Source of the DNA: a virus
Reading direction: 5' to 3' (one strand)
DNA length: 64,000 nt
Virus record (IMG/VR): IMGVR_UViG_3300000239_000002
Span: 1 to 64,000 of that record
Part shown: piece by piece, positions 2,362 through 44,719 of the stretch
How positions within the stretch are numbered: the first letter of the stretch is position 1
How the letters are laid out: every line of letters begins with the position of its first letter
The notes under the pieces: generated by a model
The model's input: only the letters and a program-made list of their open reading frames with translations
What the model was told of the DNA's origin: nothing
Database searches by the model: none
Translations under genes and position numbers: made by a program

Positions 2362-2874
2362 ATGTTAGTAAAAAAAATTGATCATAAAATAGATTTAGAT
2401 AAATTAGTAGATGCTATACATAATATACCAGTAGATTATAAAGGTAACCAAATATCATTGCAAATGCGAGAAGAATCAGAAGATCCGTGGTATGAAAGTT
2501 GTGGGAGATTAAGGTCAATATCGGGGAAAGAAAGTGATTATAATTTAATTGTACCAATTCTTAAGGGAACTTATATAGAAGAAATGTTTCAGTCTTTTCC
2601 TTTTAAACCTACACGAGCGAGATTAATGAATATGTCTCCCAGAACATGTTATAGTATACACAAAGATCCTTCCGCTCGTTATCATATTGCTGTTACTACT
2701 AATCCTCTTGCTAAATTTATTTTTACTGACAAGGAAAAAATTTTTCATATTCCAGCAGATGGTTATTTATATTGGGTGGACACACGTGAAGTTCATACAT
2801 TTATTAACGGCAACATCGCCAAAGGCTCATTAAACGAAGATAGACTTCATTTACTAGTAGGATATGATGAATAG
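2362..2874 (+). CDS. 2-oxoglutarate/Fe(II) oxygenase, aspartyl/asparaginyl hydroxylase-like
   Basis: 170 residues. An HxD motif (IHKD, about residue 98) and a distal His (REVHTF) with a following Arg (NEDRLHLL) make up the Fe(II) facial triad and the 2OG carboxylate contact of the cupin-fold oxygenases. Spacing and length resemble the AspH-like subgroup. It begins two bases after the kinase-like gene and overlaps the next oxygenase by 11 bases, so translational coupling is likely. It would hydroxylate a protein side chain or a small molecule; the substrate cannot be read from sequence. Confidence 0.75.
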   Translation: MLVKKIDHKIDLDKLVDAIHNIPVDYKGNQISLQMREESEDPWYESCGRLRSISGKESDYNLIVPILKGTYIEEMFQSFPFKPTRARLMNMSPRTCYSIHKDPSARYHIAVTTNPLAKFIFTDKEKIFHIPADGYLYWVDTREVHTFINGNIAKGSLNEDRLHLLVGYDE

Positions 2875-3343
2875 TTTTAAAATAGATAATTTTCCATCAG
2901 TAAACGTGGAAAAATTCATAAGCATAGGTAATAATATAATAGAACCCGCATGGACTATACGTCCAAGTCTAATAGATAATATTTTAGTACAAGAAGAATT
3001 AGATTGGCTAGAGCAATATAAATTATATCCATGCTATACAGCAATTATAATGACGCCGGCTTTAACAATCTGTAAAACACATGTAGATGGTAAAGCATCA
3101 GATGCTGGATTAAAACAAAGAAGAACTGCTATTAATATACCTATACAAGGTTGGGATAATAGTTCATTTCAATTTATGTCGGATGAAGAAAACATTATAG
3201 AAACTATATGTACAGATGCAGTTATGTGTTGGGATGTAACTCAACCTCATAGAATAGATAATTTTAAAAGTAAATTAAATAGAATTACGTTGAGTTTTGG
3301 GTTTGTTGAATCGGTAGACAATATTTACGACAAATTGTCTTAA
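2864..3343 (+). CDS. 2-oxoglutarate/Fe(II) oxygenase
   Basis: 159 residues. The HVD motif in ICKTHVDGK (about residue 70) and the distal His/Arg pair in TQPHRID...LNRITLSF complete the triad. It starts inside the preceding oxygenase gene, and its 3' end overlaps the 3' end of the convergent oxygenase on the opposite strand by 59 bases. Last gene of the rightward half of the cassette. Substrate unknown. Confidence 0.72.
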   Translation: MMNSFKIDNFPSVNVEKFISIGNNIIEPAWTIRPSLIDNILVQEELDWLEQYKLYPCYTAIIMTPALTICKTHVDGKASDAGLKQRRTAINIPIQGWDNSSFQFMSDEENIIETICTDAVMCWDVTQPHRIDNFKSKLNRITLSFGFVESVDNIYDKLS

Positions 3344-3905
3344 TTTCATTCCAAGAATATTTAGGGTCAAATCTAAGAGATATCATAGCTCTTTCTTCTT
3401 CTTGTGGTAATGGATTAAAAACAGAATGATATTCACCATTGTTAAATAATACTGGTGTGTCTGTTAAAGAAAATTCTACTGCTAATTTTAATTCACCACT
3501 TTCATATGCTGTAGATTTAGGCATTTGAATACTAGTATGCTTGCCTATAGGTAACCAAAAATTAGTTCTAACTTTTTTTGTACAATTATATACTGGCAAA
3601 TTAATTGAACCAGTAAATTTTGTTTTAGAATGATCTTTATGTATTGGTATAAACAAATTAGATCTTCTTTTACTGTGGAAATATATAACAAATAACTTGT
3701 CCATATAAAGGTGTGATATTATTTCATCTGGAATCATATTTAATATAATATCATTAAATTCAAAACTATTAAGAAATTTATCATGCTTTATAGCATAGTT
3801 CTCCCAAAAGCATTCTTCTATAGCTTCTTTATTGTATTTTTCAAAACATAACGGAAGGACATAATCGTCTACATTTACGCCTTCGCTAACAGAAAATAAT
3901 TTCAC
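3285..3905 (-). CDS. 2-oxoglutarate/Fe(II) oxygenase
   Basis: 206 residues, leftward. HKD in LFIPIHKDHS (about residue 110) and a distal His/Arg pair in GEYHSVFNP...EERAMISLRF mark the metal and co-substrate sites. The gene overlaps its upstream neighbour (sulfotransferase-like) by four bases, so these two are coupled, and runs antisense into the end of the rightward oxygenase gene. Promoter-distal end of the leftward half of the cassette. Confidence 0.7.
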   Translation of the reverse strand: MKLFSVSEGVNVDDYVLPLCFEKYNKEAIEECFWENYAIKHDKFLNSFEFNDIILNMIPDEIISHLYMDKLFVIYFHSKRRSNLFIPIHKDHSKTKFTGSINLPVYNCTKKVRTNFWLPIGKHTSIQMPKSTAYESGELKLAVEFSLTDTPVLFNNGEYHSVFNPLPQEEERAMISLRFDPKYSWNEIKTICRKYCLPIQQTQNST

Positions 3906-4330
3906 GTAAAATACTCTTCAAAAATAATTGTTTCATGTATCTTCCAATCTTTTTTTGCCGTTAAAGTTTTATAAAGTGTTTCAAAATATATATCTAGTAT
4001 CTCTTGTTCATCTTTATCTATTATCTTAATTAAACTTTGTATGACATCTATAGGCCTTCTAATGATATCTATTATTTTATAGTTGTTCTTAATTTCTTCT
4101 TTAACATCATCTTCTAAATCATTAATGGTATGCCAATGTCCATGTAATACATATTCATGACTAAAAACTATTTCCTTAACATTGTAATTGTTTTCTCCGA
4201 GATGTTCGGGCGTATGTAAAACACCTAAGGCCGGTTGTTTGTTTAATTCTTTAGCAATATTTTTTGTTAAAGTTTTGGAACCGGATCTAGGAAAAGAAAT
4301 TACTGCTATATTAGAAATTGTGTCCGCCAT
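3902..4330 (-). CDS. sulfotransferase-family P-loop protein
   Basis: 142 residues, about half the usual sulfotransferase length. A PAPS 5'-phosphosulfate-binding-like loop, SFPRSGSKTL (about residue 10), and a 3'-phosphate-binding-like segment, IIRRPIDVIQSL, are both present. If active it would move sulfate from PAPS to a hydroxyl or amine, conceivably one made by a neighbouring hydroxylase. The start overlaps the end of the TauD-like gene upstream and the end overlaps the downstream oxygenase. Confidence 0.6.
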   Translation of the reverse strand: MADTISNIAVISFPRSGSKTLTKNIAKELNKQPALGVLHTPEHLGENNYNVKEIVFSHEYVLHGHWHTINDLEDDVKEEIKNNYKIIDIIRRPIDVIQSLIKIIDKDEQEILDIYFETLYKTLTAKKDWKIHETIIFEEYFT

Positions 4331-5034
4331 AATAATCTTTCTCCGGTAAACGCATCACGTTTGTGCATTACTCTAATGTTGTCATACACTATAATATCAT
4401 TATCCTCCCATTCATGTTGCCATGCAAATTTGAGACAATGTTCTAACAGTTTATCTACATCGATGGGTCTACTTGTTTTGTGCAATGTGCCGGGACTAAA
4501 ATAAAGCACCTTTTCACCTGTTACATGATGTTCAAATATAAAAGGTCTGTGTATATTTTGCTTTGCTAACAATTTAAGTTGTTTTTCTGTAAAACAATAG
4601 TGTAGATCTTCTGGCGGATAGTAATATCCAATTATATCTTTTAGATCATCTTTATTATTGTATCTATCTAATGCAAGTTTCATATCAATAAATTGTGTTG
4701 GACATATATCTCCATTGGATTTATTATATAAAACTACACCAAAATAATTTCCTCTGCCATAACTCCAATCATTGTGCCAGTCTACATCACTATTCTTAAA
4801 CAATTCTGTATTTGCTACTGCTTGCACAGTGCGGTCTTCATTTAAAATATGTTTTTCAGTTACTAAAGGTTTCCCCAAGAATGAAGAAAAATTAGCAAAC
4901 TCATCTATAGTTAAGTTTCTTTTGTTCTTTATGTGAACAAACCCATCTTTTAAAACTAAATTAATTAATGGTTGTCGCAGTATCGTGGATGTTATGCACC
5001 CAGATTCCACTTCGGAATAATTCACGGTTGCCAT
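4306..5034 (-). CDS. TauD/TfdA-family 2OG-Fe(II) oxygenase (canonical triad)
   Basis: 242 residues from the ATG at 5034; that start lies 73 bases inside the upstream gene, and no later ATG precedes the conserved LKDGFVHIK segment. HND in VDWHNDWSYG is the first part of the triad; VMHKRDAFTGER with a downstream Arg gives the distal His and 2OG contact. Paralogue of the gene just upstream, which lacks the acidic ligand, so the pair makes an internal comparison. TauD-type enzymes hydroxylate small molecules such as taurine or amino acids. Confidence 0.75.
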   Translation of the reverse strand: MATVNYSEVESGCITSTILRQPLINLVLKDGFVHIKNKRNLTIDEFANFSSFLGKPLVTEKHILNEDRTVQAVANTELFKNSDVDWHNDWSYGRGNYFGVVLYNKSNGDICPTQFIDMKLALDRYNNKDDLKDIIGYYYPPEDLHYCFTEKQLKLLAKQNIHRPFIFEHHVTGEKVLYFSPGTLHKTSRPIDVDKLLEHCLKFAWQHEWEDNDIIVYDNIRVMHKRDAFTGERLLWRTQFLI

Positions 5035-5839
5035 AATATTTGTCTCGTCTATGCAGGCTATGATGTTGATCACTTAAAATAATGTCATAAGGATCCCAGG
5101 TATGTGTATACACATACTTGTCTTGCATAGTATGTTCTTTTAAATGAAAATATAGTTCTTTCTGTTGTTCTTTTGGCATACCTGTAAACCCTCTTATCAC
5201 ACTCCAAGGAAAATGCAATCCTTTTTTATTGTTGATAGGATGTGTTGTTACTAACATTTTTCTATTAACTTGCTTTTCAAATGAAGGAGTACCATCAATA
5301 TCTTTAAATGTCATTAATGATTCTGTATCATAAAAAATATTTTTATGTAAAGACGACAGGCCCAATTTTTCACCTACTTTATATGTAAGAGTTTTACTTT
5401 TTATTTCATTAATACTATTTTTTATATCTATGCCTAGATCATTGTAAGCTGATTGTCCATCACTAAAGTATGTATTGCCCCCAGTATCAGATGTTATATT
5501 CATATACATTGCTACGATGTCTTCACTACCAGTTCGGTTCATACCAGCACTATGCCATTCTAATTCACCATCGTCAGCACCCGCAAATAATGATGTACTT
5601 GTAACTCTGACTAGTTCATTATAACCATCTACACCAACACCTGCTACAGTGTCTGCTTGTGCTACTACACTACCTAATGTCTTATAAAATTCTACTAAAA
5701 CAGTAGGATTAACAGGAGAAGTATTTTTAATAACTACTATTCTGCCGTCTCCCACTAATTGTAGTAGTTGTGACGGATCTTCTTTAAAAGATATATTAGT
5801 AATTTTGTATCCAAAATTACCTAATTTTGTAACTTCCAT
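4961..5839 (-). CDS. TauD/TfdA-like 2OG-Fe(II) enzyme with HxA in place of HxD (halogenase-like site)
   Basis: 292 residues. A TauD-type core is recognisable: VVIKN near the N-terminus, a glycine-rich SDTGGNTYFSDG, and distal LHRRDKYYGNRELFR supplying the second His and Arg. At the metal motif the sequence is ELEWHSAGMNR, so the usual HxD/E reads H-S-A. In this superfamily Ala or Gly at that position opens a coordination site for halide and is the signature of radical halogenases such as SyrB2. Family knowledge therefore allows halogenase, nitration-like or dead-enzyme readings. The start overlaps the upstream gene by 23 bases. Confidence 0.7.
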   Translation of the reverse strand: MEVTKLGNFGYKITNISFKEDPSQLLQLVGDGRIVVIKNTSPVNPTVLVEFYKTLGSVVAQADTVAGVGVDGYNELVRVTSTSLFAGADDGELEWHSAGMNRTGSEDIVAMYMNITSDTGGNTYFSDGQSAYNDLGIDIKNSINEIKSKTLTYKVGEKLGLSSLHKNIFYDTESLMTFKDIDGTPSFEKQVNRKMLVTTHPINNKKGLHFPWSVIRGFTGMPKEQQKELYFHLKEHTMQDKYVYTHTWDPYDIILSDQHHSLHRRDKYYGNRELFRSGIWVHNIHDTATTIN

Positions 5840-6413
5840 TTTTAAATTCCTCTAAAGTAATAGATTCCATTGTTAAGGATGCATTATTATTTAACTTTTT
5901 ATAGATTATTGATTGCCAACATTGATATGAATTTTGGTTCTCACAGACTAAATGAAAGTCAGGACTTAAAATCCAATCTTTTAAGAATTTTTGAGGATAA
6001 TGCTTTAGTGAGGTTTGGCCGGTTTTTGTTTCTCTACTCATAAAAACAATATCGTAATTATAGTGTTTTGCTATATCACTTTGTTGTTGTATCATTTGTT
6101 GAGTTTCTGGAGTAACATTTTTTATAGATGTGGCAAATCTGTAATGCGGTGATTTATAAAATCTATTTAAACAACGCACAGCATTGCCAAATATATCTCG
6201 ATGAAGTAATGTACTAAATCCAATAATTTTATTTTTACTTGTAATTAGAGTAATAGCAATGCTTTCTTCTAATTTTAATTTTTCTGGAGTATAATTTTTA
6301 GCAAGAGATTCAGTTAGTGGTTCATATTTTAAAAAATTATATATACTTCCCGCACTTATGTAAAAATTTGACTGACTATTGTGTATAGTTACTACGTTAG
6401 TATCCAAATTCAT
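5817..6413 (-). CDS. probable GNAT-like acyltransferase
   Basis: 198 residues from the ATG at 6413; a longer version would need a TTG at 6443. A central strand pair, IAITLITSKNKIIGFSTL, followed by a long basic segment and helix is reminiscent of a GNAT core, but the acetyl-CoA pyrophosphate loop (Q/RxxGxG/A) is not obvious. It overlaps both flanking genes, so it belongs to the same leftward transcript as the radical SAM and TauD-like genes. Treat the family as tentative. Confidence 0.4.
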   Translation of the reverse strand: MNLDTNVVTIHNSQSNFYISAGSIYNFLKYEPLTESLAKNYTPEKLKLEESIAITLITSKNKIIGFSTLLHRDIFGNAVRCLNRFYKSPHYRFATSIKNVTPETQQMIQQQSDIAKHYNYDIVFMSRETKTGQTSLKHYPQKFLKDWILSPDFHLVCENQNSYQCWQSIIYKKLNNNASLTMESITLEEFKNGSYKIR

Positions 6414-7368
6414 TTCTTTTAAGATGTTCGAAGAATGGAGCAATTTTAAAATTAGGGGTTAGTCGTCCTCTATTGGGGTTATCCGGATCTACTACACCAT
6501 CATCATCTATACCCCAATCAATTAATCTAATATATAATTTACCTAATTCTGTTTCGTATGGAAATACTAAACTGGAACATTCTTCTTGTACAACAGTTTT
6601 ATTTTTATAATGTTTATCTTTTTGAACAGCAATAACAGTTCCACTGGCGGCTTTATGATTCAATATCCATTCTTTACTGAGATTTAGTTGTTCAGCAACT
6701 ACGCCTGCTAATTCTTCTAAAGCATACGCATGATTTTTGCCCATGTTGCGTCCAATGGAGCCTACACTTTTCATTCTTAATACTGGTGTTATTCGACGAT
6801 ATATTTTTGTTGTTTTAAAATCGACTCCTGCTTCCTTAGCACAATTTACTACGGTTTGTATTTGCCTCATTATTGTATGTTCATTGACATTTCTTGCAAT
6901 TATTGTTCCAGTATTAATAGCAAATTGTTGTCTGAATAAGTTAGTTAATGCTCTAGTTTTTGCTGTTGCCCATTTGCCATTGTCGAGAATTTTATAAATT
7001 TCATCGTCATCAGCACCATTCATACTTGTTAATACAAGATTTAATCCTGCTTCTTTTAGTTTTTGGCAATATTCTTGTCGTGCTAATTTTAAACCATTAG
7101 TAGTTAATGTTGTTTGGTGTCCTCGTTTTTTTATATTATAAATAATATCCGCAAGGTCATCGCGCATTGTGGGTTCAGCGCCAATTAATCTGATATATGT
7201 TCTAAATGGTAATCGATCAACAACATCGTAAAGTTTTGTTACATCTAAATCGGGTATATGACGGTTTGGAATATAGCAATTTGAACATTCCATATTACAC
7301 CGATGAGTTAAATCAACAACTAAATTAGAAAATATATTATTTTCAGGTTCTAGTTCGTAGTAGTGCAT
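6397..7368 (-). CDS. radical SAM enzyme
   Basis: 323 residues. The CxxxCxxC cluster motif is in THRCNMECSNCYIP (about residue 24), followed by a GAEP version of the SAM-binding GGEP motif and a TTNGLKLAR strand. The C-terminus has a single further Cys pair region around EECSSL, without a clear SPASM domain. It follows the small gene at 7369-7680 with no gap and leads the leftward cassette. The reaction and substrate are unknown; the neighbours suggest peptide or amino-acid modification. Confidence 0.8.
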   Translation of the reverse strand: MHYYELEPENNIFSNLVVDLTHRCNMECSNCYIPNRHIPDLDVTKLYDVVDRLPFRTYIRLIGAEPTMRDDLADIIYNIKKRGHQTTLTTNGLKLARQEYCQKLKEAGLNLVLTSMNGADDDEIYKILDNGKWATAKTRALTNLFRQQFAINTGTIIARNVNEHTIMRQIQTVVNCAKEAGVDFKTTKIYRRITPVLRMKSVGSIGRNMGKNHAYALEELAGVVAEQLNLSKEWILNHKAASGTVIAVQKDKHYKNKTVVQEECSSLVFPYETELGKLYIRLIDWGIDDDGVVDPDNPNRGRLTPNFKIAPFFEHLKRNEFGY

Positions 7369-7680
7369 TTAACTAATTTCTTCAGTTATAGTCCATCCAT
7401 TGTTTTCTAAAAATGATTTGCCAGTTGAAATACCGGATAAATTTGTATATTCAGCATAATCACCATTATTTGTCCAAACTCTAGTTTCTACAAGTACTGA
7501 ATTAGAATCTAATTCAGATGTAATAGATAAGTTGCCACCTTTTGATTCGCAAAATGCCATAACTTCGCCTTGGCCAGTCTTGCCTTCGAGTTTATCAGTC
7601 CATAATTCGTCATATGCTTCTTCTATAGTATCAAAAGGAACACCATCTTTAGTATATGTAACTTTTTGTGTAACTGCCAT
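7369..7680 (-). CDS. small protein of unknown function
   Basis: 103 residues, unrecognised. The N-terminus (MAVTQKVTYTKDG) and alternating polar/hydrophobic pattern suggest a small beta-rich domain; the end (FLENNGWTITEEIS) is acidic. No Cys cluster, signal or membrane segment. It abuts the radical SAM gene and may be its substrate or partner, but nothing in the sequence proves this. It starts opposite the duplicated promoter at 7697, so the intergenic space is divergent. Confidence 0.6.
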   Translation of the reverse strand: MAVTQKVTYTKDGVPFDTIEEAYDELWTDKLEGKTGQGEVMAFCESKGGNLSITSELDSNSVLVETRVWTNNGDYAEYTNLSGISTGKSFLENNGWTITEEIS

Positions 7681-9615: not shown

Positions 9616-10263
9616 ATGGTTACCTTAGAAGAAAATTCTTTGGCAACACTACTCACAAGTCACTCAACAATGAAAAAAGATAGAATCATATTAACAGATG
9701 TAGATGGTGTCTTGCTAGACTGGGAATTCGCGTTTCATACGTGGATGGAAGAACATGGTCACACGGCAGGAAACGGACATAAACTAGTTTATAGCGTAGC
9801 AAAGCGTTTTAGTATAACTGGTAACAATGCTAAAAAATTAGTAGAATTTTTTAATGAGAGTGCTTCAATAGGCTTCCTCCCCCCATTGCGTGATGCTATG
9901 TATTACGTAAAAAAACTACATGAGCAACATGGTTACGCATTTCACGCAATCACGTCATTAAGTTTGAATAGACACGCGATACGTTTAAGAGAACAAAATT
10001 TGTCTAAACTGTTTGGTGACACAGCATTTGAAAAAGTAGTTTGTTTAGATACTGGCGTTGATAAAGATGACGCATTAGAACCTTATAGAGATTCAGGATG
10101 TTGGTGGGTAGAAGACAAAATGAAAAATGTAGATACTGGCGAAAAAATGGGGTTACGCGGTATACTAATGGAACATGGACATAATATGGATTATGAAGGC
10201 CCTGCTTTAGTTGCTAAAAATTGGAAGGATATTTACAACTATATTACTAATCCTTCATCGTAA
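9616..10263 (+). CDS. HAD-superfamily phosphatase
   Basis: 215 residues. The nucleophile motif ILTDVDGVLLDWEF (about residue 27), an ITSLS motif II and a WVEDKMKN acidic motif IV fit a C1-capped HAD hydrolase of the 5'-nucleotidase/phosphatase type. The start at 9616 is preferred over an internal ATG at 9670 because a TAAATA box lies five bases upstream. The 3' end overlaps the convergent Fe-S carrier gene by 17 bases. The substrate could be a nucleotide or sugar phosphate. Confidence 0.75.
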   Translation: MVTLEENSLATLLTSHSTMKKDRIILTDVDGVLLDWEFAFHTWMEEHGHTAGNGHKLVYSVAKRFSITGNNAKKLVEFFNESASIGFLPPLRDAMYYVKKLHEQHGYAFHAITSLSLNRHAIRLREQNLSKLFGDTAFEKVVCLDTGVDKDDALEPYRDSGCWWVEDKMKNVDTGEKMGLRGILMEHGHNMDYEGPALVAKNWKDIYNYITNPSS

Positions 10264-10576
10264 AGGATTCACCACATCCACAAGATGTAGTATCTGGGAT
10301 CATAACCTTAAATGCTGGCATAAAATCACCAGTATAATCAATTGTTGCGCCAGTCATATGTGTAATTGTAAATTTATCTATAAGGAATTGTTTGCTTTCT
10401 CCTAATTCGAAAGTAATATCACCATCTTCTAACTCTGTAGAATTTTCCCATTTGCCAATCAACCCCGAGCATCCGCCGCCATCAAGTAAATAGCGGACGT
10501 AAGGCACGTCATTCTTAGTAGCAATTGTTAATAACTGCTTTTTTGCTGTTTCAGTTAGTGTTATATTGTATTCCAT
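10247..10576 (-). CDS. A-type iron-sulfur carrier (IscA/ErpA/HesB-like)
   Basis: 109 residues, the normal family size. Three conserved Cys are present: one in GGGCSGLIG and two in the C-terminal SCGCGES. These proteins pass Fe-S clusters to apo-enzymes. The ATG at 10576 has a GAGAGAG ribosome site just upstream. Overlaps the upstream glycosyltransferase-like gene. With four radical SAM genes in the window, a cluster-delivery role is plausible. A second, more divergent copy is at 38018. Confidence 0.85.
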   Translation of the reverse strand: MEYNITLTETAKKQLLTIATKNDVPYVRYLLDGGGCSGLIGKWENSTELEDGDITFELGESKQFLIDKFTITHMTGATIDYTGDFMPAFKVMIPDTTSCGCGESFTMKD

Positions 10577-11468
10577 ATTCTCTCTCAAAAGTTTTCTTTA
10601 ACCAATCATAATTGTCGGAAGTATTTCTGTATTCTTCTATCCAATTATTACATATTGTAGCACATTTTATGCCGTATGTCACTCCTTCTATACAGTATTT
10701 ACCATTTTTTTGCTCCTCGCCCACAGTTGCCCAATGATTTAATCTTTCTTCAGTTTCTTTCAAATTTGAATTTAAATTTAATAAACGAAATGTAAGCCTA
10801 TTTCCCATCCTGAATCCAGTTTTCCAAGCATCATACGGAGAGGAATTAAAAAAGTCTACACTAGCAATTGCATTCGGTCGAATTCCTTCGCATTTGAATG
10901 AATCTGCCTCGATTGATTTTATCGACTCTTTACTGTCTATATCGTTTATATAATTATATGGTATATTAAAATTAGTATCACACTTCCAATTGTATAGACT
11001 ATCAGATTTAAATGCTAAACCGATTGGGCTATGAGTGCCAATTTCTCCATTAACAGGATTTATAGAATTCCAAGTAATGCAATGTCTTGCTTTAACATAA
11101 TCGTAATTAAGTTCGTTGTGATCTAATGATGCTATACTTTGCAACCATTCTTGCGGTGGTTTAAAGTTAAAATCCTTACATATCATTGAATCTCCCTCTA
11201 CAATAAAATAAAAAGGAGTTTCTGCTAATTCTCTGCAAGCATTATACGCATTGAGTATTCCTTTAACCCCATTTACACGTTTAGCACTAGGCACACGCTT
11301 TTTTAATAATTCATAATGTTTATCAGCAGCTTTTTCATTATAACTCATAAACACTACGTCTAAATGTGGTTCTGGTATAGGTTTTACATCAGATAAATCA
11401 GAATTATATTCAATAAACTTATTAACAGTTTCTAAGTCAATATATTGTTTGGTTAAATCTAACTTCAT
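10551..11468 (-). CDS. glycosyltransferase-like (GT-A type) protein
   Basis: 305 residues from an ATG that sits five bases after a TAAATA box on the minus strand. VVFMSYNEKAADKHYELL resembles a nucleotide-sugar-binding start and YFIVEGDSMICKDF a DxD-like metal motif. A shorter paralogue at 55295 shares the GVxGIxxA, FYxVxGDSxIxxDF and FFNSSP/YNTSPF-xxW blocks. A role in decorating virion or host glycans is possible; the family assignment is from pattern only. Confidence 0.5.
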   Translation of the reverse strand: MKLDLTKQYIDLETVNKFIEYNSDLSDVKPIPEPHLDVVFMSYNEKAADKHYELLKKRVPSAKRVNGVKGILNAYNACRELAETPFYFIVEGDSMICKDFNFKPPQEWLQSIASLDHNELNYDYVKARHCITWNSINPVNGEIGTHSPIGLAFKSDSLYNWKCDTNFNIPYNYINDIDSKESIKSIEADSFKCEGIRPNAIASVDFFNSSPYDAWKTGFRMGNRLTFRLLNLNSNLKETEERLNHWATVGEEQKNGKYCIEGVTYGIKCATICNNWIEEYRNTSDNYDWLKKTFEREYGIQYNTN

Positions 11469-22613: not shown

Positions 22614-24554
22614 ATGGTAAGCAAATTACTTAAAGAGTATTCTTCTAACTATCAAAGTAAAAAAGAGATAGAAATAACATTAGAAGAATATTTAACATTA
22701 TGTAAGAAAGATCCATTGGCTTATGCTACATCTGCTGAACGCATGTTAGCAGCTATCGGAGACCCAGAACACGTCGATACTTCAGAAGATTCAAGATTGT
22801 CTCGTATATTCTTGAATAGAACATTAAGAGTTTTCCCAGCATTTAAAGATTTTTATGGATTAGAAGATACAGTTGAACGAATTGTAGGCTTCTTTAAACA
22901 CGCCGCGCAAGGATTGGAAGAACGCAAACAAATATTATATTTGCTTGGTCCAGTAGGTGGCGGCAAGAGTTCTTTAGCAGAACGACTAAAAGAACTAATG
23001 GAAACATATCCAATATATGTTCTTAAAGCAGGCGATACAATTAGTCCTGTGTATGAAAGTCCGTTATCATTATTTGATCCAGAAGTATATGGTGACCAAC
23101 TTGAAAAAGAATATAAAGTGCCAAAACGTTATCTCACCGGCTTGTTAAGTCCGTGGGCAATTAAACGTTTGGACGAATTTGACGGAGATATTACTAAATT
23201 TTCCGTAGTTAAATTACAGCCTAGCAAATTAAAGCAAATTGCTGTAGTAAAAACAGAACCAGGTGATGAAAATAACCAAGATATAAGTGCTCTAGTAGGC
23301 AAAACAGACATTCGCCAATTAGAATACTTTTCACAACATGATCCAGATTCATATGCATTTAGTGGTGCATTGTGTAAGGGCAACCAAGGCCTTATGGAGT
23401 TTGTAGAAATGTTTAAAGCACCAATTAAAGTGCTACATCCACTATTAACTGCTACACAAGAAGGCAACTACATGGGCACAGAAGGTATTAGTGCTATCCC
23501 ATTTAGTGGCACAATTTTAGCACATAGTAATGAATCAGAATGGACATCATTTAAAAACAACAAAAATAACGAAGCGTTTTTAGATCGTGTATATGTTGTT
23601 AAAGTTCCTTATTGTTTGCGTATAGATGAGGAAATTAAGATTTATGATAAGATGCTAACATCTAGTGGATTAGCAAATCATGCGTGTGCCCCACAAACAC
23701 TAGATATGTTAGGACAGTTTTCAATTTTAAGCAGATTACTTGAGCATGAAAACAGCAATTTGTTTTCCAAAATGCAAGTGTATAATGGTAAGAACTTAAA
23801 GGATACGGATCCGCAAGCAAAGAGTCTACAGGAGTATAAAGATACTGCTGGAGTAGACGAAGGCATGTCAGGTTCATCGACACGTTTTGCTTTTAAGATT
23901 TTATCTCAGACATTCAACTTTGACACAGCGGAGATAGCCGCTGATCCAGTACATCTAATGTTTGTATTGGAACAAGCGATAAAACGCGAGCAATTTGGTG
24001 AGGAAAAAGAAAAAGCACTCATTTATTATATTAAAGAGTGGCTCTCGCCAAAGTATGCTGATTTTATCGGCAATGAAATACAGAAAGCATATTTAGAAAG
24101 TTATAGTGATTATGGACAAAACTTGTTTGATCGTTATATTCAATATGCTGACCATTGGATACAAGAGATAGATTTTAAGGATCCTGATACAGGCAACCTC
24201 TTTAATCGTGACGTATTAAACGACGAACTAGAGAAAATAGAAAAGCCAGCAGGCATTGCTAACCCTAAAGACTTCCGTAGTGAAGTAGTCAACTTTGTTC
24301 TACGCGCTAAAGCAAAGAACAAAGGTAAAAATCCAAAATGGTCAAGTTACGAGAAACTACGTGAAATTATAGAGAAGAAAATGTTTGCGTCTACAGAGGA
24401 ATTACTTCCAATTATTTCCTTTGGTAATAAGCAAAATAAAGATGATCAACAAAAGCATGACGATTTTGTAGAGCGTATGGAGTCAAAAGGCTATACAGAA
24501 CGTCAAGTGCGCCGCCTCGTGGAGTGGTTTATGCGGACCCAGAAGTCAAGTTAA
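22614..24554 (+). CDS. prkA: PrkA serine protein kinase (AAA+ type)
   Basis: 646 residues, full family length. Walker A (GPVGGGKSSLAERL, about residue 105) sits in the N-terminal AAA+ PrkA domain; the C-terminal half carries the kinase-like region with GMSGSSTRFAFKILS and WLSPKYADFIGNEIQKAYLE. In bacteria PrkA (YeaG in E. coli) acts with YeaH and SpoVR/YcgB in starvation and stress adaptation; its activity has been described both as a kinase and as an AAA+ protease. Here all three partners follow in order. Good ribosome site (AGGAGCG). Confidence 0.92.
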   Translation: MVSKLLKEYSSNYQSKKEIEITLEEYLTLCKKDPLAYATSAERMLAAIGDPEHVDTSEDSRLSRIFLNRTLRVFPAFKDFYGLEDTVERIVGFFKHAAQGLEERKQILYLLGPVGGGKSSLAERLKELMETYPIYVLKAGDTISPVYESPLSLFDPEVYGDQLEKEYKVPKRYLTGLLSPWAIKRLDEFDGDITKFSVVKLQPSKLKQIAVVKTEPGDENNQDISALVGKTDIRQLEYFSQHDPDSYAFSGALCKGNQGLMEFVEMFKAPIKVLHPLLTATQEGNYMGTEGISAIPFSGTILAHSNESEWTSFKNNKNNEAFLDRVYVVKVPYCLRIDEEIKIYDKMLTSSGLANHACAPQTLDMLGQFSILSRLLEHENSNLFSKMQVYNGKNLKDTDPQAKSLQEYKDTAGVDEGMSGSSTRFAFKILSQTFNFDTAEIAADPVHLMFVLEQAIKREQFGEEKEKALIYYIKEWLSPKYADFIGNEIQKAYLESYSDYGQNLFDRYIQYADHWIQEIDFKDPDTGNLFNRDVLNDELEKIEKPAGIANPKDFRSEVVNFVLRAKAKNKGKNPKWSSYEKLREIIEKKMFASTEELLPIISFGNKQNKDDQQKHDDFVERMESKGYTERQVRRLVEWFMRTQKSS

Positions 24555-24570
24555 GTATTATAATGCGAGT

Positions 24571-24576
24571 TAAATA
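24571..24576 (+). promoter_or_regulatory. late-promoter-like box
   Basis: TAAATA followed by five bases and the ATG at 24582 of the HNH gene. Confidence 0.5.
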
Positions 24577-24581
24577 CTATC

Positions 24582-25103
24582 ATGCATAAACATCATATTA
24601 TACCAAAACATATGGGTGGCACTGATGATTCCTCTAATATAGTTAAGCTGTCTGTGGAAGATCATTCACTTGCTCATAAAGCACTATATGAACAACACGG
24701 CCACTGGGAAGATAAACTTGCTTGGCGGGCGTTATCTGGTATTATTGCTAAAGAAGACGTTATACTTGAGCTACAACGCGAAGCAGGGCGTAGAGTAAAA
24801 TCCCCTGAAGAGCGAGCAAAGTTAAGTAAAAGTTTAACGGGCAGAACAGCATCTTTAGAGCATAGGGCAAATATAAGTAAAGGCTTGAGACTCAAGCATA
24901 GCCTACGCCCAACATCTGCTGAAACAAAAGCAAAGATGGTAAAGGCTCATACTGGATATAAACACACACCCGAAACAAAAGAAAAGCTCAGCCTAATTGC
25001 TTCAAAAAGAATACCATCAGAATCAACTAAGAAAAAAATCAGTGAATCAATGAAAGCCTATAGAAAATCGCAACGAGATGATTCATGCCCAAGCATATTA
25101 TAG
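24582..25103 (+). CDS. HNH homing endonuclease with NUMOD3-type repeats
   Basis: 173 residues. The N-terminus MHKHHIIPKHMGG...NIVKLSVEDHSLAHKAL is an HNH nuclease core. The rest holds short repeated DNA-binding modules of NUMOD3 type (SPEERAKLSKSLTG, SLEHRANISKGL, TSAETKAKMVKAHTG, TPETKEKLSLIA). Such free-standing genes spread by cutting near their insertion site. It sits between prkA and yeaH and its end overlaps the yeaH-like start, with its own late-type box. Confidence 0.8.
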   Translation: MHKHHIIPKHMGGTDDSSNIVKLSVEDHSLAHKALYEQHGHWEDKLAWRALSGIIAKEDVILELQREAGRRVKSPEERAKLSKSLTGRTASLEHRANISKGLRLKHSLRPTSAETKAKMVKAHTGYKHTPETKEKLSLIASKRIPSESTKKKISESMKAYRKSQRDDSCPSIL

Positions 25104-26470
25104 ATAGGCGGCAGAATCCTAAAGGTAAAAACTTATCTAATAGACAGAGATTCATAAAACGCTCTAAAAAGCATCTTAAAGAGAGCATGGATGAAGCCAT
25201 GAAGACTCGTTCTGTAAAGGATTTAAAGTCTGGCAGCCGTGTTCGTGTGCCTTCCAAAAGTATTAAAGAGCCACAGTTTAATTATGATCCTAAATCAGGA
25301 CAGAAAGATTATATACTGCCAGGTAATCAAGAATACTTACAAGGTGATAAAATACGTAAACCATCCTCTGGGCAAGGCGGTAGCGGCGGCCAAGAAGGAT
25401 CTGATGATGCGTATGGGGAAGACGATTTTGTTTTTTCTATTAGTAGAGATGAATTTCTAGACATATTATTTGAGGATTTGGAACTACCAAACCTCAAAGA
25501 AAAGAAAAAGAAAAGTATAGAGGAGTTTACTACTCGTCGTTCTGGCTATGTTAATGAGGGTTCTCCTAATAATTTAAATCTTGAGCAAAGTATGATACGC
25601 AGTATTGGTAGACGTATTGCTCTTAAAAAACCTAAAGGAAAACGTATAAAGGAACTTGAAAAACGATTAGAAGAACTTATAGAGGAAAGAAAACCGCTTG
25701 TTGCTATTATAGAGAAGTATTCTTTTAATAAACAGGCAAGATGTAAAGAAGCATCTTTATTAAAAGAAATTGATGATGAGATTGTAGAGATAGAGGCAGA
25801 GATTAAAAAAATAAGAGCACGTTATAATGCTATCTCTTTTATTGACCCAATTGACTTAAAATTTAATAACTTTACTAAAGTTCCAAATCCTAAAAATGCC
25901 GCTGTTATGTTTTGTATATTGGATGTATCAATATCGATGCAAGAGCGTGAGAAAGATTTAGCAAAACGCTTCTTTATTTTATTACACTTGTTTCTTAGTA
26001 TGAAGTATGATTTAGTAGAAGTAGTGTTTATACGACACCACACAACTGCTAAAGAATGCACAGAGGAAGAATTTTTTACTAGTAAAGAAAGTGGCGGTAC
26101 TGTAGTATCTACTGCACTAGATTTAGCATATGATATTATTAGAAAGAGATATGATTTGGAATATTGGAATGTTTATGTAAGTCAAGCAAGTGATGGTGAT
26201 AACTTTACTACTGATAATCAGCAAGTACATAATACTATGGAAACTAAATTATTACCATTAGTTCAGTTTTTTGCGTATGTTAGTATTGTAACACATCAAC
26301 ACCAAGTCAATAATGATATAGGTTTATCTGTAGGAAGTGGTTTAGAAAAAATATATAAAGTATTAATGGATGCTTTTGAGTATGTGCAAATACGTAGAGT
26401 GTATGAACCAAAAGATATATATCCTGTGTTTAGAAAATTCTTTGCGCCGAAAGGAGAAAATGATGAGTAA
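25085..26470 (+). CDS. yeaH: YeaH/DUF444 family stress protein
   Basis: 461 residues. Basic N-terminus with RQRFIKRSKKHLKESM, a glycine-rich linker (residues 95-105), a coiled-coil part around residue 190-245, and a von Willebrand A-like domain with a DxSxS metal motif in CILDVSISMQERE (about residue 277) and the SGGTVVSTAL loop. DUF444 proteins accompany PrkA and SpoVR in bacterial stress operons. Overlaps the HNH gene upstream and the SpoVR gene downstream. Confidence 0.9.
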   Translation: MPKHIIDRRQNPKGKNLSNRQRFIKRSKKHLKESMDEAMKTRSVKDLKSGSRVRVPSKSIKEPQFNYDPKSGQKDYILPGNQEYLQGDKIRKPSSGQGGSGGQEGSDDAYGEDDFVFSISRDEFLDILFEDLELPNLKEKKKKSIEEFTTRRSGYVNEGSPNNLNLEQSMIRSIGRRIALKKPKGKRIKELEKRLEELIEERKPLVAIIEKYSFNKQARCKEASLLKEIDDEIVEIEAEIKKIRARYNAISFIDPIDLKFNNFTKVPNPKNAAVMFCILDVSISMQEREKDLAKRFFILLHLFLSMKYDLVEVVFIRHHTTAKECTEEEFFTSKESGGTVVSTALDLAYDIIRKRYDLEYWNVYVSQASDGDNFTTDNQQVHNTMETKLLPLVQFFAYVSIVTHQHQVNNDIGLSVGSGLEKIYKVLMDAFEYVQIRRVYEPKDIYPVFRKFFAPKGENDE

Positions 26471-28106
26471 ACCTTTATATGAACCAAAAAGTGACTGGAG
26501 TTTTGATCTTATTTCTAAAATATATGATGCGTGTGAAGAAATAGCAATTAATGAACTTGGTTGTGATTGTTATATTAACCAATTAGAAGTAGTAACATTT
26601 GAACAAATGTTAGATGCTTATGCTAGTATTGGTATGCCGTTATCTTATAATCACTGGAGTAATGGTAAAGCATGGGCACATTATGAGAACCAATATAGAA
26701 AAGGTAGAACAAGTTTAGCATATGAGTTGGTTATTAATAGTAATCCTTGTATTAATTATTTGATGGAAGAAAACTCGATGACTACACAAACGTTAGTCAT
26801 TGCACATGCCGCGTTTGGACATAATCATTTCTTTAAGAATAATTATTTGTTTAAAACATGGACAAGTGCTGACAGTATTATTGACTATCTATTATTTGCT
26901 AAAAATTATATACAAAAGTGTGAGGAAAAGTATGGACTTGATGAAGTAGAACTTTTCTTAGATTCCCTACATGCAATACGCAATTACGGAATAAACAAAT
27001 ATAAACGTCCTGACAAATTAAATGTCACCGTAGAAGCAGAGAAAGCACAAGAACGAGCAACATATTTACGTAAACAAGTAAATGAACTATGGGATACTAC
27101 AGTTATTCCAAATAAAAAAAATACAGAAGAAAAAGAACAAAGAGTTAGTATGGCAAAGCCGGAAGAAAATATAATTTACTTTTTAGAAAAACATGCTCCT
27201 AATTTAACTGATTGGCAACGCGAATTATGCCGCATAGTGCGTAAAATTGCTCAATATTTTTATCCACAAGGGCAAACAAAAGTAATGAACGAGGGATTTG
27301 CTTGTTTTGTGCATTATTACTCAATGAATAGATTGCATGAGAAAGGATTAATTACTGATGCGGCAATGTTTGAGTTTTTAAGATTACATACTAATGTATT
27401 AAATCAACCAACATTTGATAAAAAATGGTATAATGGTATGAATCCTTATTCACTAGGTTTTGCTATGTTTATGGATATTAAACGTATGTGCGAACATCCG
27501 ACAGCAGAAGATAAGGAATGGTTTCCTGATATTGCTGGTGGTGATTGGAAAGAAATTATTTTAGATGCTGTTGCTAATTACAGAGATGAAAGTTTTATAC
27601 TGCAATTTCTATCACCTAAAGTAATTAGAGATTTTAGATTATTCCAACTCGGGGATAACAAGTCAGATCCACATTATAAGGTTAAAGCAATTCATAATGA
27701 TAAAGGATATAAAAGTATACGCAAAGAGATGGCACGTCAGTATGATTATAATTATCGTATACCTGATATACAAGTTGTTGATTATGATCATGATGAGAAG
27801 CGTTCATTACTATTGCATCATTATAAAGGACCAAGTCAAAGAGAGTTGTCAAAGGACACAACAATTGAAGTATTAAATTATATTGCTTACATTTGGGGTT
27901 ATGAGATACAATTAGATGTATATAGTAAGCAAGAAAAATTTATTGATGGTGAGTCAGTAGGTGATCCATTTCAGAAAGTAAATGGATATAAATCTACTTC
28001 TACTGACGGGACATCGCCACCACCAGAAAAAGTTCCTGCAAAGAATTTTGGTTACTGGGGAATGTGTTTAACATCAGACAACTCTGAAACCATTGACAAA
28101 TCATAA
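26463..28106 (+). CDS. spoVR: SpoVR family protein (YcgB-like)
   Basis: 547 residues from the ATG at 26463; an ATG three bases earlier is also possible. Signature segments: YEPKSDWSFDLI, GMPLSYNHWSNGKAW, SLAYELVINSNPCINYLMEEN, AHAAFGHNHFFKNN, MNEGFACFVHYY and LLLHHYKGPSQRELS. This is the third member of the PrkA-YeaH-SpoVR set. The ribosome site AAAGGAG lies within the end of yeaH. The C-terminus carries a short polar extension. Confidence 0.92.
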   Translation: MSKPLYEPKSDWSFDLISKIYDACEEIAINELGCDCYINQLEVVTFEQMLDAYASIGMPLSYNHWSNGKAWAHYENQYRKGRTSLAYELVINSNPCINYLMEENSMTTQTLVIAHAAFGHNHFFKNNYLFKTWTSADSIIDYLLFAKNYIQKCEEKYGLDEVELFLDSLHAIRNYGINKYKRPDKLNVTVEAEKAQERATYLRKQVNELWDTTVIPNKKNTEEKEQRVSMAKPEENIIYFLEKHAPNLTDWQRELCRIVRKIAQYFYPQGQTKVMNEGFACFVHYYSMNRLHEKGLITDAAMFEFLRLHTNVLNQPTFDKKWYNGMNPYSLGFAMFMDIKRMCEHPTAEDKEWFPDIAGGDWKEIILDAVANYRDESFILQFLSPKVIRDFRLFQLGDNKSDPHYKVKAIHNDKGYKSIRKEMARQYDYNYRIPDIQVVDYDHDEKRSLLLHHYKGPSQRELSKDTTIEVLNYIAYIWGYEIQLDVYSKQEKFIDGESVGDPFQKVNGYKSTSTDGTSPPPEKVPAKNFGYWGMCLTSDNSETIDKS

Positions 28107-28164: not shown

Positions 28165-30264
28165 TTGTCTTTAAACAATTATAGAAACATTGGTATCTTC
28201 GCACATGTGGACGCGGGTAAAACTACGACTACTGAGAGGATCCTTAAGCTCACAGGAAAGATACACAAAATTGGTGAGGTACATGATGGCGCCGCAACCA
28301 CAGACTTTATGGAGCAAGAGCAAGAGCGAGGCATTACAATACAAAGTGCCGCGACTACTTGCTACTGGAAAGACCACCAATTAAACATCATCGACACCCC
28401 TGGGCATGTAGACTTCACTATTGAAGTCTATCGTTCCCTTAAGGTGTTGGATGGTGGCGTTGGTGTATTTTGTGCAAGCGGTGGCGTAGAGCCACAATCC
28501 GAAACTAACTGGCGTTATGCTAACGACAGCGAAGTAGCACGTATTATATACATTAACAAGATGGATAGAGTAGGTGCTGATTTTAATCGTGTTGTAGCAC
28601 AAATAAGAACACGACTTGGTGCGAAGCCGTTAATTATGACATATCCAATTGGAGCGGAAGATAAATTCGTAGGTGTAGTTGATATACTTACTCAAAAGGC
28701 TTGGATATGGTCAGATTCTACTGACCCAACTTCTTACACTATAACTGACATCCCAGATGATAAAGTACCTAGTGAGAAAATAGGTGACAAGTATACATAT
28801 AAAGAAATGGCAAAACAACATTATGATATATTAGTTGAGACAGTTGTTGAGCAAGACGATGAAGTTATGATGCAATGGATAGATGATCCAGATAGCATTA
28901 GTGAAGAAGATCTTAAAATGTGTATACGTAAAGGTACTAATACTTGTGAGTTCTTTCCAACGTATTGCGGCAGTTCATTTAAAAACAAAGGCGTACAAAA
29001 CATATTAAATGCTATTGTAGATTATTTGCCCAATCCTACCGAAGTTGACCCACAACCAATAGTAGATGACACTGGTGTAGAAACAGGTGAAGTTGCTACG
29101 GTAGATGCAGAAGGGCCGTTGCGGGCACTTGCATTTAAGATTATGGAAGACAAATATGGCGCACTAACATTTACACGCATTTATTCAGGCAACATGAAGA
29201 AAGGTGACTCCATATACAATAGTACAAATGGTAAAACAGAACGTGTTGGGCGTATATTGGAAATGCATGCCGACTCGCGTGAGGAATTGGACAGTGCATC
29301 AGCAGGTGACATTGTTGCATTGCTTGGTATGAAGTCTGTACAAACAGGCCATACATTGTGTGATAAAAAGAACCAAGCAATACTTGAACCAATGGTATTC
29401 CCAGATCCAGTTATTAGCATAGCAATTGAACCAAAGACACAAAGTGATATGGACAAGTTAGGAACTGCTATTGGTAAAATGGTAGCAGAGGATCCTTCCT
29501 TCCATGTAGAGACAGACCAAGAAACTGGCCAAACAATACTTAAAGGCATGGGCGAGTTGCATTTAGATGTTAAGTGCGATATACTAAAACGCACATACGG
29601 TGTGGAAGTAAGCATAGGTAAACCACAAGTAGCATATAGGGAAACAATTACTAAAACAGTCAGTGATAGGTATACCCATAAAAAGCAAACAGGTGGTGCA
29701 GGCCAGTTTGCTGATATTGAATATACTGTAGAACCTCTTGAAGCAGGAGAGGGATTCCAATTTGAAAGCAAGGTAGTTGGCGGCAATGTTCCAAGAGAGT
29801 TTTGGACTTCTATAGAGAAGGGATTTGCAGGCTCCAGTGCAGATGGTATACTTGCAAGTTACCCAGTGCTTGATTACAAAGTAACATTAACAGATGGTTC
29901 CAGTCACGCAGTAGATAGTAGTGCTGTGGCATTTGAGCTGGCGGCTCGCGGAGCATTTAGACAAACAATGCCCAAAGCAGGTCCGAAGTTATTAGAGCCA
30001 ATTATGAAACTAGACGTTACTTGCCCCGGAGACAAAGTAGGTGATGTTATAGGTGATATAAATAGGCGTAGAGGCATGATACACAATCAAGAAATGGCTG
30101 GCACAACGGTTCGTATATACGCAGAAGCACCAATTGGTGAAATGTTTGGGTATATAGGAGACTTACGCAGTCAAACAAGTGGTCGTGGTCAATTTAGTAT
30201 GGAATTTAGTCATTATGCGCCGTGTCCTAATAGCATTACTGAGGTTATCTTAAAGAAAACTTAA
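28165..30264 (+). CDS. fusA: translation elongation factor G
   Basis: 699 residues, full length (E. coli 704). GTPase motifs: [14 protein letters not shown] (P-loop), DTPGHVDF and NKMDR; the domain IV region with [18 protein letters not shown] and [19 protein letters not shown] is intact. The start is TTG, chosen because [10 protein letters not shown] matches the family N-terminus; GGAG lies just upstream. EF-G drives ribosome translocation and recycling. No ribosomal protein or EF-Tu gene neighbours it, unlike the bacterial str operon. Huge phages are known to carry translation factors, but a complete EF-G is uncommon. Confidence 0.95.
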
Positions 30265-42601: not shown

Positions 42602-42685
42602 GCCCCCGTGGCGGAACGGCAGACGCTGTTGACTTAAAATCAATTTCCGATAGGAGTGCTGGTTCGAATCCAGCCGGGGGCACCA
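42602..42685 (+). tRNA. tRNA-Leu (UAA)
   Basis: Acceptor GCCCCCG/CGGGGGC, anticodon loop with TAA, long variable arm, encoded CCA. Confidence 0.93.
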
Positions 42686-42692
42686 AATTAAT

Positions 42693-43037
42693 ATGAAAAG
42701 AATACTAACATTATATTTCACGTATAAAGGACTCAGTGGTTTTGAGATTGACCAATACGTGCCATTTACTACTGCGGTGGTAAATGATGATTCAGAATAC
42801 GAATTCACACAACAATGGCTTGCTAATATTTTGGATGCTCGCCTTAAATGTGACCAGGATATATCAAGTTTTGTTATAACTGAAACAGAAGAAACTGACG
42901 AAGAAGCCGCGAAGCAAACAGAAAACCTTGGTGTTTTTGTTGAGCACCAAAAGAAAGTAATCCCTAAACCCGAAGGTAACATTGTTACCGTAGATTTTGG
43001 AAAGAGAAATGGACCCGACGACACAAAAGATAATTGA
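42693..43037 (+). CDS. small acidic protein of unknown function
   Basis: 114 residues. N-terminal beta part (RILTLYFTYKGLSGFEI), then acidic helices (TETEETDEEAAKQTENL). It begins eight bases after tRNA-Leu. No recognised motif. Confidence 0.5.
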   Translation: MKRILTLYFTYKGLSGFEIDQYVPFTTAVVNDDSEYEFTQQWLANILDARLKCDQDISSFVITETEETDEEAAKQTENLGVFVEHQKKVIPKPEGNIVTVDFGKRNGPDDTKDN

Positions 43038-43242
43038 TCATTACAGAGCCATTAGCAAAGAGATGATGGATCGTGTTGCGGCAAGTCAGGTTAAAGTAGT
43101 TCCGCCTGAATTATTTGCAACATATGAATCAGGATCAGTGCAGGGACTTATGTATAAAGTATATAAGGATTGGAAGGATAATTTAACTTGTAATTGTCCG
43201 GGTTTTGTTTACAGGAGAAAGTGCAAGCATATAAGCAGTTGA
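43009..43242 (+). CDS. SWIM-type zinc-finger protein
   Basis: 77 residues from the ATG at 43009. The C-terminus CNCPGFVYRRKCKHIS is a CxCxnCxH SWIM motif, found in DNA- or protein-binding contexts. Overlaps the end of the preceding gene. Confidence 0.65.
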   Translation: MDPTTQKIIDHYRAISKEMMDRVAASQVKVVPPELFATYESGSVQGLMYKVYKDWKDNLTCNCPGFVYRRKCKHISS

Positions 43243-43250
43243 TTATATAC

Positions 43251-43279
43251 TTGACAAAATTAGTAAAATGCAGTATCAT
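43251..43279 (+). promoter_or_regulatory. sigma70-like promoter placed for a leaderless transcript
   Basis: TTGACA at 43251-43256, 17 bases, TATCAT at 43274-43279 (CATAAT overlapping). The ATG at 43286 is six bases after the -10 box. Confidence 0.65.
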
Positions 43280-43285
43280 AATAGT

Positions 43286-43441
43286 ATGAAGAACCCTCGC
43301 CGCAAGACGAGATTCGCTCGTGTTCTGTTTGAACGCGATAACCCTTACTCTCAGAAAGTTGAACGTAAGAAAACCGCTTATACTCGTCGTGCCAAGCACA
43401 ATCACGAATATAAGCAAGAACTAGGAGACTATAATGTCTGA
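43286..43441 (+). CDS. small basic protein
   Basis: 51 residues with a Lys/Arg-rich composition (NPRRKTRFARVLFERDN, YTRRAKHNHEYKQE), like the short basic proteins (DUF7230-type) seen in T4-like phages. Behind its own strong promoter with no leader. Overlaps the next gene by eight bases. Codon use is more GC-rich than average, as expected for a highly expressed product. Confidence 0.55.
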   Translation: MKNPRRKTRFARVLFERDNPYSQKVERKKTAYTRRAKHNHEYKQELGDYNV

Positions 43442-43820
43442 TCAAGGATTACTCAGTAGCGTTGGAACAGTTAATGCGATGAAAAAAGCGGAGGCCTTAC
43501 GTAAACAATATCATTCAGTCTTGCCAAGCATCAAGGAAGTTGGTGAAGTAGTGCGATGGGTTGGTGATTTGTCAGCCAAAGACAAAGAGCCCTTGCATAG
43601 TGGTTCATTTCGTTGGATGTTTACTGATATTGCCACGTGGCAGAGAAAAGTAACCCCCAGTGAAAGTTATATTATGGTTGAGAGTGCTCTGGAAGAGACT
43701 CGCTTTCCAACTTGGGGTGAAGCACGTGATTATTTGACTGCTGAAGATAACTTTCACGCCAAACGTTATTATAACGCAGAGGTTGAAGTGTCGTTGATGG
43801 ACGAAGACGAGGATGAATGA
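43434..43820 (+). CDS. acidic helical protein of unknown function
   Basis: 128 residues, ending in an acidic tail (SLMDEDEDE). No motif. Coupled to the basic protein upstream, giving an acidic/basic gene pair. Confidence 0.5.
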   Translation: MSDQGLLSSVGTVNAMKKAEALRKQYHSVLPSIKEVGEVVRWVGDLSAKDKEPLHSGSFRWMFTDIATWQRKVTPSESYIMVESALEETRFPTWGEARDYLTAEDNFHAKRYYNAEVEVSLMDEDEDE

Positions 43821-43974
43821 CTTATTTGATAAGTACGATGTAGTGGCTGATATGGTTGTTGTGTTTGGTGCTGACAAAGTGCTAGAAGCAATGGCCCATT
43901 ATTTCAGTGAAAAAGAAATCGACGAGTTGCATAGTTTTATATGCGATGAGTTCAATAAGAACCTTATGGGGTAA
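43813..43974 (+). CDS. small helical protein
   Basis: 53 residues, acidic, with GADKVLEAMAHYFSEKEIDE helices. Overlaps the acidic-tail gene by eight bases and ends three bases before the peptidase start. No recognised family. Confidence 0.45.
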   Translation: MNDLFDKYDVVADMVVVFGADKVLEAMAHYFSEKEIDELHSFICDEFNKNLMG

Positions 43975-43977
43975 GTT

Positions 43978-44487
43978 ATGATTATAACCACAAATGGTTA
44001 TAACACACAAAGTAAAAGGTTTAGAACTTTGTTAGAGGATTCCGCAGAGTTTTATGCCCAGAAGATGATGAGGTCTGACTTATGTAGAAACATACATTTG
44101 GATATCGTCGTAACGAAGGATTTAGCGAAAAAAGAAGGAGTAACGCAGATATATGGTTATTGCCATATATCAGATTATAGATTATCTCGTCCACGTGAAT
44201 TTGAAATTGAGCTAGATGCTAAAAAGCGTGTAACGAAAATGTTGCTAACATTAGCACATGAAATGACACATTTGAAGCAGTTTGCAAGGCTACAATTGCG
44301 AAATTATGATAATGGTAGCACAAAGTGGAAAGGTGAAACAGTTGGTCGTAAGAGGGAAAAGAAAATAGGTCATCGCCAACTTCCATGGGAAGTTGAGGCC
44401 TATAAGAAAGAGAAGGAATTATTTCTAGATTTGGTAAATAATACTGACATACTAGACGATTATATGGATGGAATTAAGAGAAATTGA
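43978..44487 (+). CDS. zinc metallopeptidase-like protein (HExxH)
   Basis: 169 residues. A zincin motif LAHEMTHLKQFA (about residue 98) with HExxH and a downstream acidic WEVEAYKKEKEL that may give the third ligand fits an SprT-like or related small metallopeptidase. N-terminal beta strands (NIHLDIVVTKDL). Might cleave proteins bound to DNA or virion precursors; the substrate is unknown. Confidence 0.68.
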   Translation: MIITTNGYNTQSKRFRTLLEDSAEFYAQKMMRSDLCRNIHLDIVVTKDLAKKEGVTQIYGYCHISDYRLSRPREFEIELDAKKRVTKMLLTLAHEMTHLKQFARLQLRNYDNGSTKWKGETVGRKREKKIGHRQLPWEVEAYKKEKELFLDLVNNTDILDDYMDGIKRN

Positions 44488-44719
44488 TTTAGAATATCTC
44501 TTTATGTTAAATCGACAACAACAGGCAGAACAACTTTTTAATAAGTGGTGGTTATGCAAAATAAACGACAAATACTTTGCTGGGCAGTTTGACTATCCTA
44601 GTGGTCCATGGGGCGGTGGCGGTGGTGTAATCCACTTTAATCCAGTGCCATGGAATCCAAGTGGTCATACTTTTACGGTAATGACAGGTTGGCAAGGTCT
44701 TTGGGAAATACTCAACTAA
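44468..44719 (+). CDS. small protein with Gly/Trp-rich C-terminus
   Basis: 83 residues. The N-terminal helix is followed by a Gly- and Pro-rich aromatic region (PSGPWGGGGGVIHFNPVPW). Overlaps the peptidase gene by 20 bases. Unknown role. Confidence 0.45.
   Translation: MELREIDLEYLFMLNRQQQAEQLFNKWWLCKINDKYFAGQFDYPSGPWGGGGGVIHFNPVPWNPSGHTFTVMTGWQGLWEILN

Follow-up and report, generated by a model that had tools for sequence, protein, structure and literature searches.

A viral TauD-fold protein with alanine at the place of the acidic iron ligand, encoded in a conserved phage gene cassette

The gene at positions 4961–5839 (minus strand) of the window, the 64,000-nucleotide stretch of IMG/VR record IMGVR_UViG_3300000239_000002 analysed here, encodes a TauD-fold protein in which an invariant alanine occupies the place of the acidic iron ligand, and it is probably a live acid-less Fe/2OG tailoring enzyme that belongs to the gene cassette in which it lies. 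This assignment draws on its fold family, the active-site residues retained, their conservation, the operon around the gene and the spread of its relatives among viruses. The gene, defined by its open reading frame, Pfam profile, viral relatives and fold match, and the codons of the predicted active site are located as follows:

4961–5839, minus strand: focal gene, putative acid-less (HxA) TauD-fold Fe(II)/2OG enzyme, 292 residues
5552–5554, minus strand: codon CAT of His96, the proximal iron ligand predicted from the sequence; invariant
5546–5548, minus strand: codon GCT of Ala98, at the position normally taken by the Asp/Glu iron ligand; invariant Ala
5471–5473, minus strand: codon of Thr123, the predicted 2OG-site Thr of the GGxT motif; invariant
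5051–5053, minus strand: codon of His263, the predicted distal iron ligand; invariant
5012–5014, minus strand: codon of Arg276, the predicted anchor of the 2OG C5-carboxylate; invariant

The focal protein matched the Pfam TauD family (PF02668) with an E-value of 2.4e-26 and a score of 93.7 bits (cut-off 27); this was its one Pfam match, the AspH (Asp_Arg_Hydrox) domain being absent. A TauD-like reading frame with HSA and with the distal His and the 2OG Arg kept, as proposed in the initial annotation, is thereby confirmed on the minus strand. The motif reads E92-L-E-W-H96-S-A98-G-M-N-R102, and all members found of the focal family carry HxA where PF02668 has the HxD/E...H iron triad; only its fold and profile make the protein a TauD/TfdA member, its active site having departed from that of the family. 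Foldseek comparison of the structural model with AAD-1/TauD gave E-values down to 6e-18 and TM-scores of 0.7–0.8 (about 0.75), the best PDB chains sharing only about 20% identity with the focal protein, and the pLDDT of the active-site loop (residues 86–103) was mostly below 50.

Scans of IMG/VR yielded 21 contigs with the focal gene, 18 by similarity and 3 by motif scan (L037, L040 and L055), two near-identical pairs being among them. The alanine is kept in 21/21, within HSA, HCA or HNA, and His96, Ala98, Thr123, His263 and Arg276 are invariant across homologues at 48–60% identity. The codon of Ala98 varies between viruses (GCA, GCT, GCC), and a protein identical to the focal one is encoded on a second viral record (322,647 bases). 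A read error at the GCT codon, previously named as a possible refutation, is thus excluded by the synonymous codons, the uniform Ala and the identical second copy, and the claim that the Ala is not an alignment artefact holds as well, with Ala in every one of these contigs and H-N-D in the neighbour at 4306–5034. To judge from the dN/dS ratios among close pairs (0.04–0.12), the HxA genes are under strong purifying selection. They form one clade (support 97/99 to 100/100). Two members (L013 and L029) have no HxD neighbour and adjoin a large gene, which is DNA polymerase B in L029; in L013 (4375–6151) two HNA TauD genes stand in tandem downstream of the counterpart of that gene.

A chance origin of the WHxA motif was rejected, for the viral pattern scan yielded TauDs of the HxA clade only, the remaining matches lacking the family profile. 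The single WHxA match in cellular genomes was judged to be chance on inspection of its DNA, and no relatives were found among 84,980 cellular genomes by sequence patterns whose strictness makes this weak evidence; a cellular origin of the gene was set aside on that same weak evidence. None of the annotated phage records held a protein close to the focal one.

The neighbouring HxD gene (4306–5034) belongs to a separate, distant TauD clade (support 100/100), which rules out a recent duplication of that gene followed by a D-to-A change. Its earlier description as an adjacent paralogue with the normal motif was right about the motif, but the gene is no close paralogue. The position of the HxA clade relative to the HxN and HxD clades shifts between trees: two trees unite HxA with HxN clades (97/91 and 96/87), whereas in a third the HxA clade lies close to HxD clades, on a very short branch (92/89). 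On these phylogenies, acid loss may have had one origin or several.

The genes of the cassette around the focal gene, and its conserved neighbours, are as follows:

6397–7368, minus strand: radical SAM protein, cassette core, motif CNMECSNC, 323 residues (Pfam Radical_SAM, 9.8e-17)
5817–6443, minus strand: GNAT-fold protein, 208 residues (AlphaFold pLDDT 87, Foldseek); conserved
4306–5034, minus strand: TauD-fold partner enzyme whose HxD triad is normal (WHNDWSYGRGNY), 242 residues (Pfam TauD, 2.2e-19)
3902–4330, minus strand: small sulfotransferase-like protein with P-loop-like motif SFPRSGSK, 142 residues; conserved in 10 loci
3285–3905, minus strand: conserved neighbour c3 with an H-x-D...H...R pattern, 206 residues; conserved in 11 loci, no Pfam match
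2864–3343, plus strand (opposite): conserved neighbour c4, 159 residues; conserved in 11 loci, no Pfam match
2362–2874, plus strand (opposite): conserved neighbour c6, 170 residues; conserved in 10 loci, no Pfam match

From the radical SAM gene through the GNAT-fold, HxA TauD, HxD TauD and sulfotransferase-like genes to c3, the genes run in a single direction with overlapping ends (74 nt between the HxD partner and the focal gene), so that the cassette is probably a co-translated operon. The same order, from the radical SAM to the sulfotransferase-like gene, is repeated in viral relatives, where the HxD partner keeps its cassette position. The radical SAM protein, in which no SPASM domain was seen, has a mean column identity of 74% over 13 viruses. 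GNAT acetyltransferases were the best PDB folds for the model of the next gene product (E-values down to 3e-7). The label "sulfotransferase-like" rests on the motif only, because 3902–4330 gave no Pfam match. By their sequences, c3 is possibly a small 2OG enzyme, and c4 and c6 are each a possible AspH-like 2OG enzyme; c6 also adjoins HxN TauDs in other loci.

Of the distinct contigs that carry the radical SAM gene together with the WHxDWSYG partner, 22/26 also have an acid-less TauD, against 0/38 radical SAM loci without this partner, some loci being cut at contig ends. The radical SAM family itself is widespread in viral contigs (L242–L319; 96/120 pattern matches confirmed), and these loci often hold other small 2OG-like genes instead of an acid-less TauD. 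A 103-residue reading frame at 7369–7680 was considered as a precursor peptide and rejected, as it showed no conservation in other cassettes. Several known HxA halogenases work on carrier-bound amino acids, and a carrier-protein partner would be expected of the SyrB2 type only; no carrier protein (PF00550) was found in 12 viral records, which may be fragments.

Beside the cassette, a methyltransferase-like reading frame (recognized from its sequence) is followed by one resembling class I/II aminotransferases (Pfam 3.5e-4) at 460–1897, and the two possibly share its pathway. Further along the window, a small reading frame at 10247–10588 on the cassette strand reads like an IscA/ErpA-type iron-sulfur carrier. 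Three adjacent genes at 22614–28106, with PHROG matches as well, are presumably similar to the bacterial PrkA (YeaG)-YeaH-SpoVR set. A full-length translation elongation factor G-like gene (699 residues; PHROG translation elongation factor) lies at 28165–30264, and fifteen tRNA genes, mostly in one array, at 42602–54327.

By analogy with the Fe/2OG superfamily, the retained residues of the focal protein would bind Fe(II) and 2OG and support ferryl chemistry; its activity and any halide at the site are likewise inferred. The iron would be held by two histidines alone (His96 and His263), Ala98 leaving the third position open. The focal enzyme would act in one phage operon with the radical SAM, GNAT-fold, HxD TauD and sulfotransferase-like proteins, whose genes point to the tailoring of a small molecule, so that the cassette products together would most likely modify such a molecule, whether amino acid, amine or lipid, in the course of infection. 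In a halogenation route, chloride would enter the open site, O2 and 2OG would generate a chloro-Fe(IV)-oxo species and, in the last step, the substrate radical would take the chlorine. The accepted hallmark of Fe/2OG halogenases is HxA/HxG, and halogenase calls made from the motif only are prone to false positives (PMC12871659). A PDB profile search up to E=10 matched the focal protein to TauD-type oxygenases only and to no known halogenase, and the first 50 fold matches of its model in the PDB included no halogenase. Halogenation by the HxA enzyme is plausible, if unproven, and we consider it the most likely single chemistry at somewhat under an even chance, with two-His oxygenation close behind.

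Such an oxygenase would operate as AspH does, with water or hydroxide at the open site and with the substrate hydroxylated, desaturated or otherwise oxidised, and we hold it to be a serious possibility. The precedent is AspH itself, a natural two-His HxG hydroxylase that does not halogenate and that retains water at its open site through catalysis (PMC8252765, PMC13168262). Hydroxylases are also the best fold matches of the focal model, and the Asn of HxN relatives would bind iron weakly or not at all at this position. Against an oxygenase, we know of no characterised natural HxA enzyme of this kind. Moreover, replacement of the Asp of FIH by Gly retains some activity, while replacement by Ala leaves none (PMC8252765).

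The exchange of enzymes within the cassette also bears on the choice between these two chemistries. The 146-kb record in which an HNA gene lies beside DNA polymerase B (L029) carries elsewhere a cassette (L241) in which an HxN TauD and an HxD partner accompany the same radical SAM gene, and two further loci (L284 and L285) show the same arrangement, with the HxN TauD in the slot of the HxA enzyme. The L241 cassette also holds genes that read, on sequence only, as desaturase-like, ATP-grasp-like and PhyH-like. Grouping of the cassette HxN enzymes with the HxA clade was rejected (p-AU 3e-5, in a test chosen after the cassettes had been seen); on this phylogenetic evidence, two different acid-less TauD clades have been recruited to one cassette slot. 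Lack of the acid therefore seems to be something that the pathway needs; that HxN and HxA enzymes of different clades share the slot also speaks for a two-His oxygenase. As far as we know, Asn is not a halogenase signature, and its presence in the slot for that reason weakens the case for an Ala-specific halide pocket; the enzymes of the slot seem to have in common that the acid is missing, and not that a halide pocket is present. Of the halogenase-type iron site put forward in the initial annotation, the Ala in place of the acid and the conserved iron and 2OG residues hold up, but the lack of detectable halogenase similarity, the AspH precedent and the HxN enzyme in the slot weigh against the halogenase part.

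The focal protein might alternatively be a non-catalytic or regulatory partner, binding 2OG or substrate as one subunit of the HxD enzyme encoded next to it. The two genes adjoin, with overlap, in cassettes, and loss of an iron ligand is a classical route to a pseudoenzyme. A decaying pseudoenzyme, however, should drift at its metal and 2OG residues, and here both His, Thr and Arg are invariant over 48–60% identity; in addition, the HxA genes of L013 and L029 have no HxD neighbour, and we regard a non-catalytic or regulatory role as unlikely. Glu92, four residues N-terminal of His96, does not vary within the HxA clade and is frequent in phage relatives; it could serve as an iron ligand or a substrate contact. 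That it, as the most likely other acid, supplies the carboxylate of a rearranged normal triad in an ordinary oxygenase is very improbable, since phage relatives with the normal Asp (GELNWHSD) also have this Glu, which so shows no apparent compensation for the lost acid.

Acid-less TauDs extend to other marine phages. The TauD of pelagiphage Mosig EXVC030M carries WHSNG; related TauDs on 42 contigs found with it also carry WHSNG, further types being WHANG and WHSNL, and those of cyanophages P-HM2 and MED4-213 read GELLWHSNES. Among the matches listed, 94 phage TauD reading frames had N (87), D (6) or A (1) at the third position, a sample of one pattern and one subgroup and not a census. HxN TauDs are common in marine phages (L073–L114, L122–L201, P-HM2 as L115, MED4-213 as L116 and Mosig as L069), which sometimes carry two acid-less TauDs close together, and they are annotated merely as taurine catabolism dioxygenase. 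The annotation of the Mosig cluster lists desaturase, aminotransferase, methylase and acetyltransferase genes. The one A among the 94 sampled frames is a second HxA TauD (L170, 3223–4290; WHSAEAGM), which is nested in phage HxD TauDs, and by this placement its Ala arose among HxD enzymes, independently of the focal HxA clade. We tentatively propose that marine phages hold a large unrecognised group of working acid-less TauDs, in which the HxA enzymes would mark the first appearance of Fe/2OG halogenases in viruses and the HxN enzymes would form a new neutral-ligand type.

In the literature searched, which covered few subscription journals, there was no report of a viral Fe/2OG halogenase or of HxA or HxN phage TauDs. 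Flavin-type halogenase-like genes occur in 20/153 cyanophages and a marine viral iodinase has been published (PMC10452541), so the earlier remark that a phage-encoded aliphatic halogenase would be unexpected does not apply to halogenation by phages in general, while for the Fe/2OG type the novelty stands as far as found.

Should the HxA protein prove to be a halogenase, marine bacteria would acquire radical C-H halogenation through phages, and unactivated carbon could be addressed with a new enzyme family; to our knowledge, these would be the first Fe/2OG halogenases in the TauD family. Should it be an oxygenase, nature would provide a clear example of an HxA site that does not signify a halogenase, which would matter for all motif-based halogenase mining. 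The three cassettes with an Asn enzyme in the slot of the Ala enzyme offer a direct test of the role of the third ligand, and phages with Asn relatives are in culture, Mosig with SAR11 as host and P-HM2 and MED4-213 with Prochlorococcus.

With the TauD/TfdA enzymes of PF02668 (AAD-1/RdpA, AAD-2 and TauD) the focal protein shares fold, profile, both His and the 2OG Arg and Thr, but these enzymes carry an acidic iron ligand where the focal family has its invariant Ala. The Fe/2OG halogenases (SyrB2, CytC3, WelO5, BesD, AdeV and DAH) have an HxA/G...H site with an open third position, as in the focal protein. The viral flavin halogenases (VirX1 and the cyanophage tryptophan-halogenase-like proteins) resemble it as phage candidates for halogenation, but their flavin class is unrelated to Fe/2OG enzymes. 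AspH has the same kind of acid-less two-His iron site, in a different domain family and with Gly instead of the focal Ala. The HxN TauDs of Mosig, P-HM2 and MED4-213, often near AspH-like genes, are like the focal protein in their TauD fold, in the missing acid, in keeping the distal His and the Arg and in their occurrence in marine phages; they differ in having Asn and in belonging to other clades, and HxN enzymes share the radical SAM/HxD cassette only at L241, L284 and L285.
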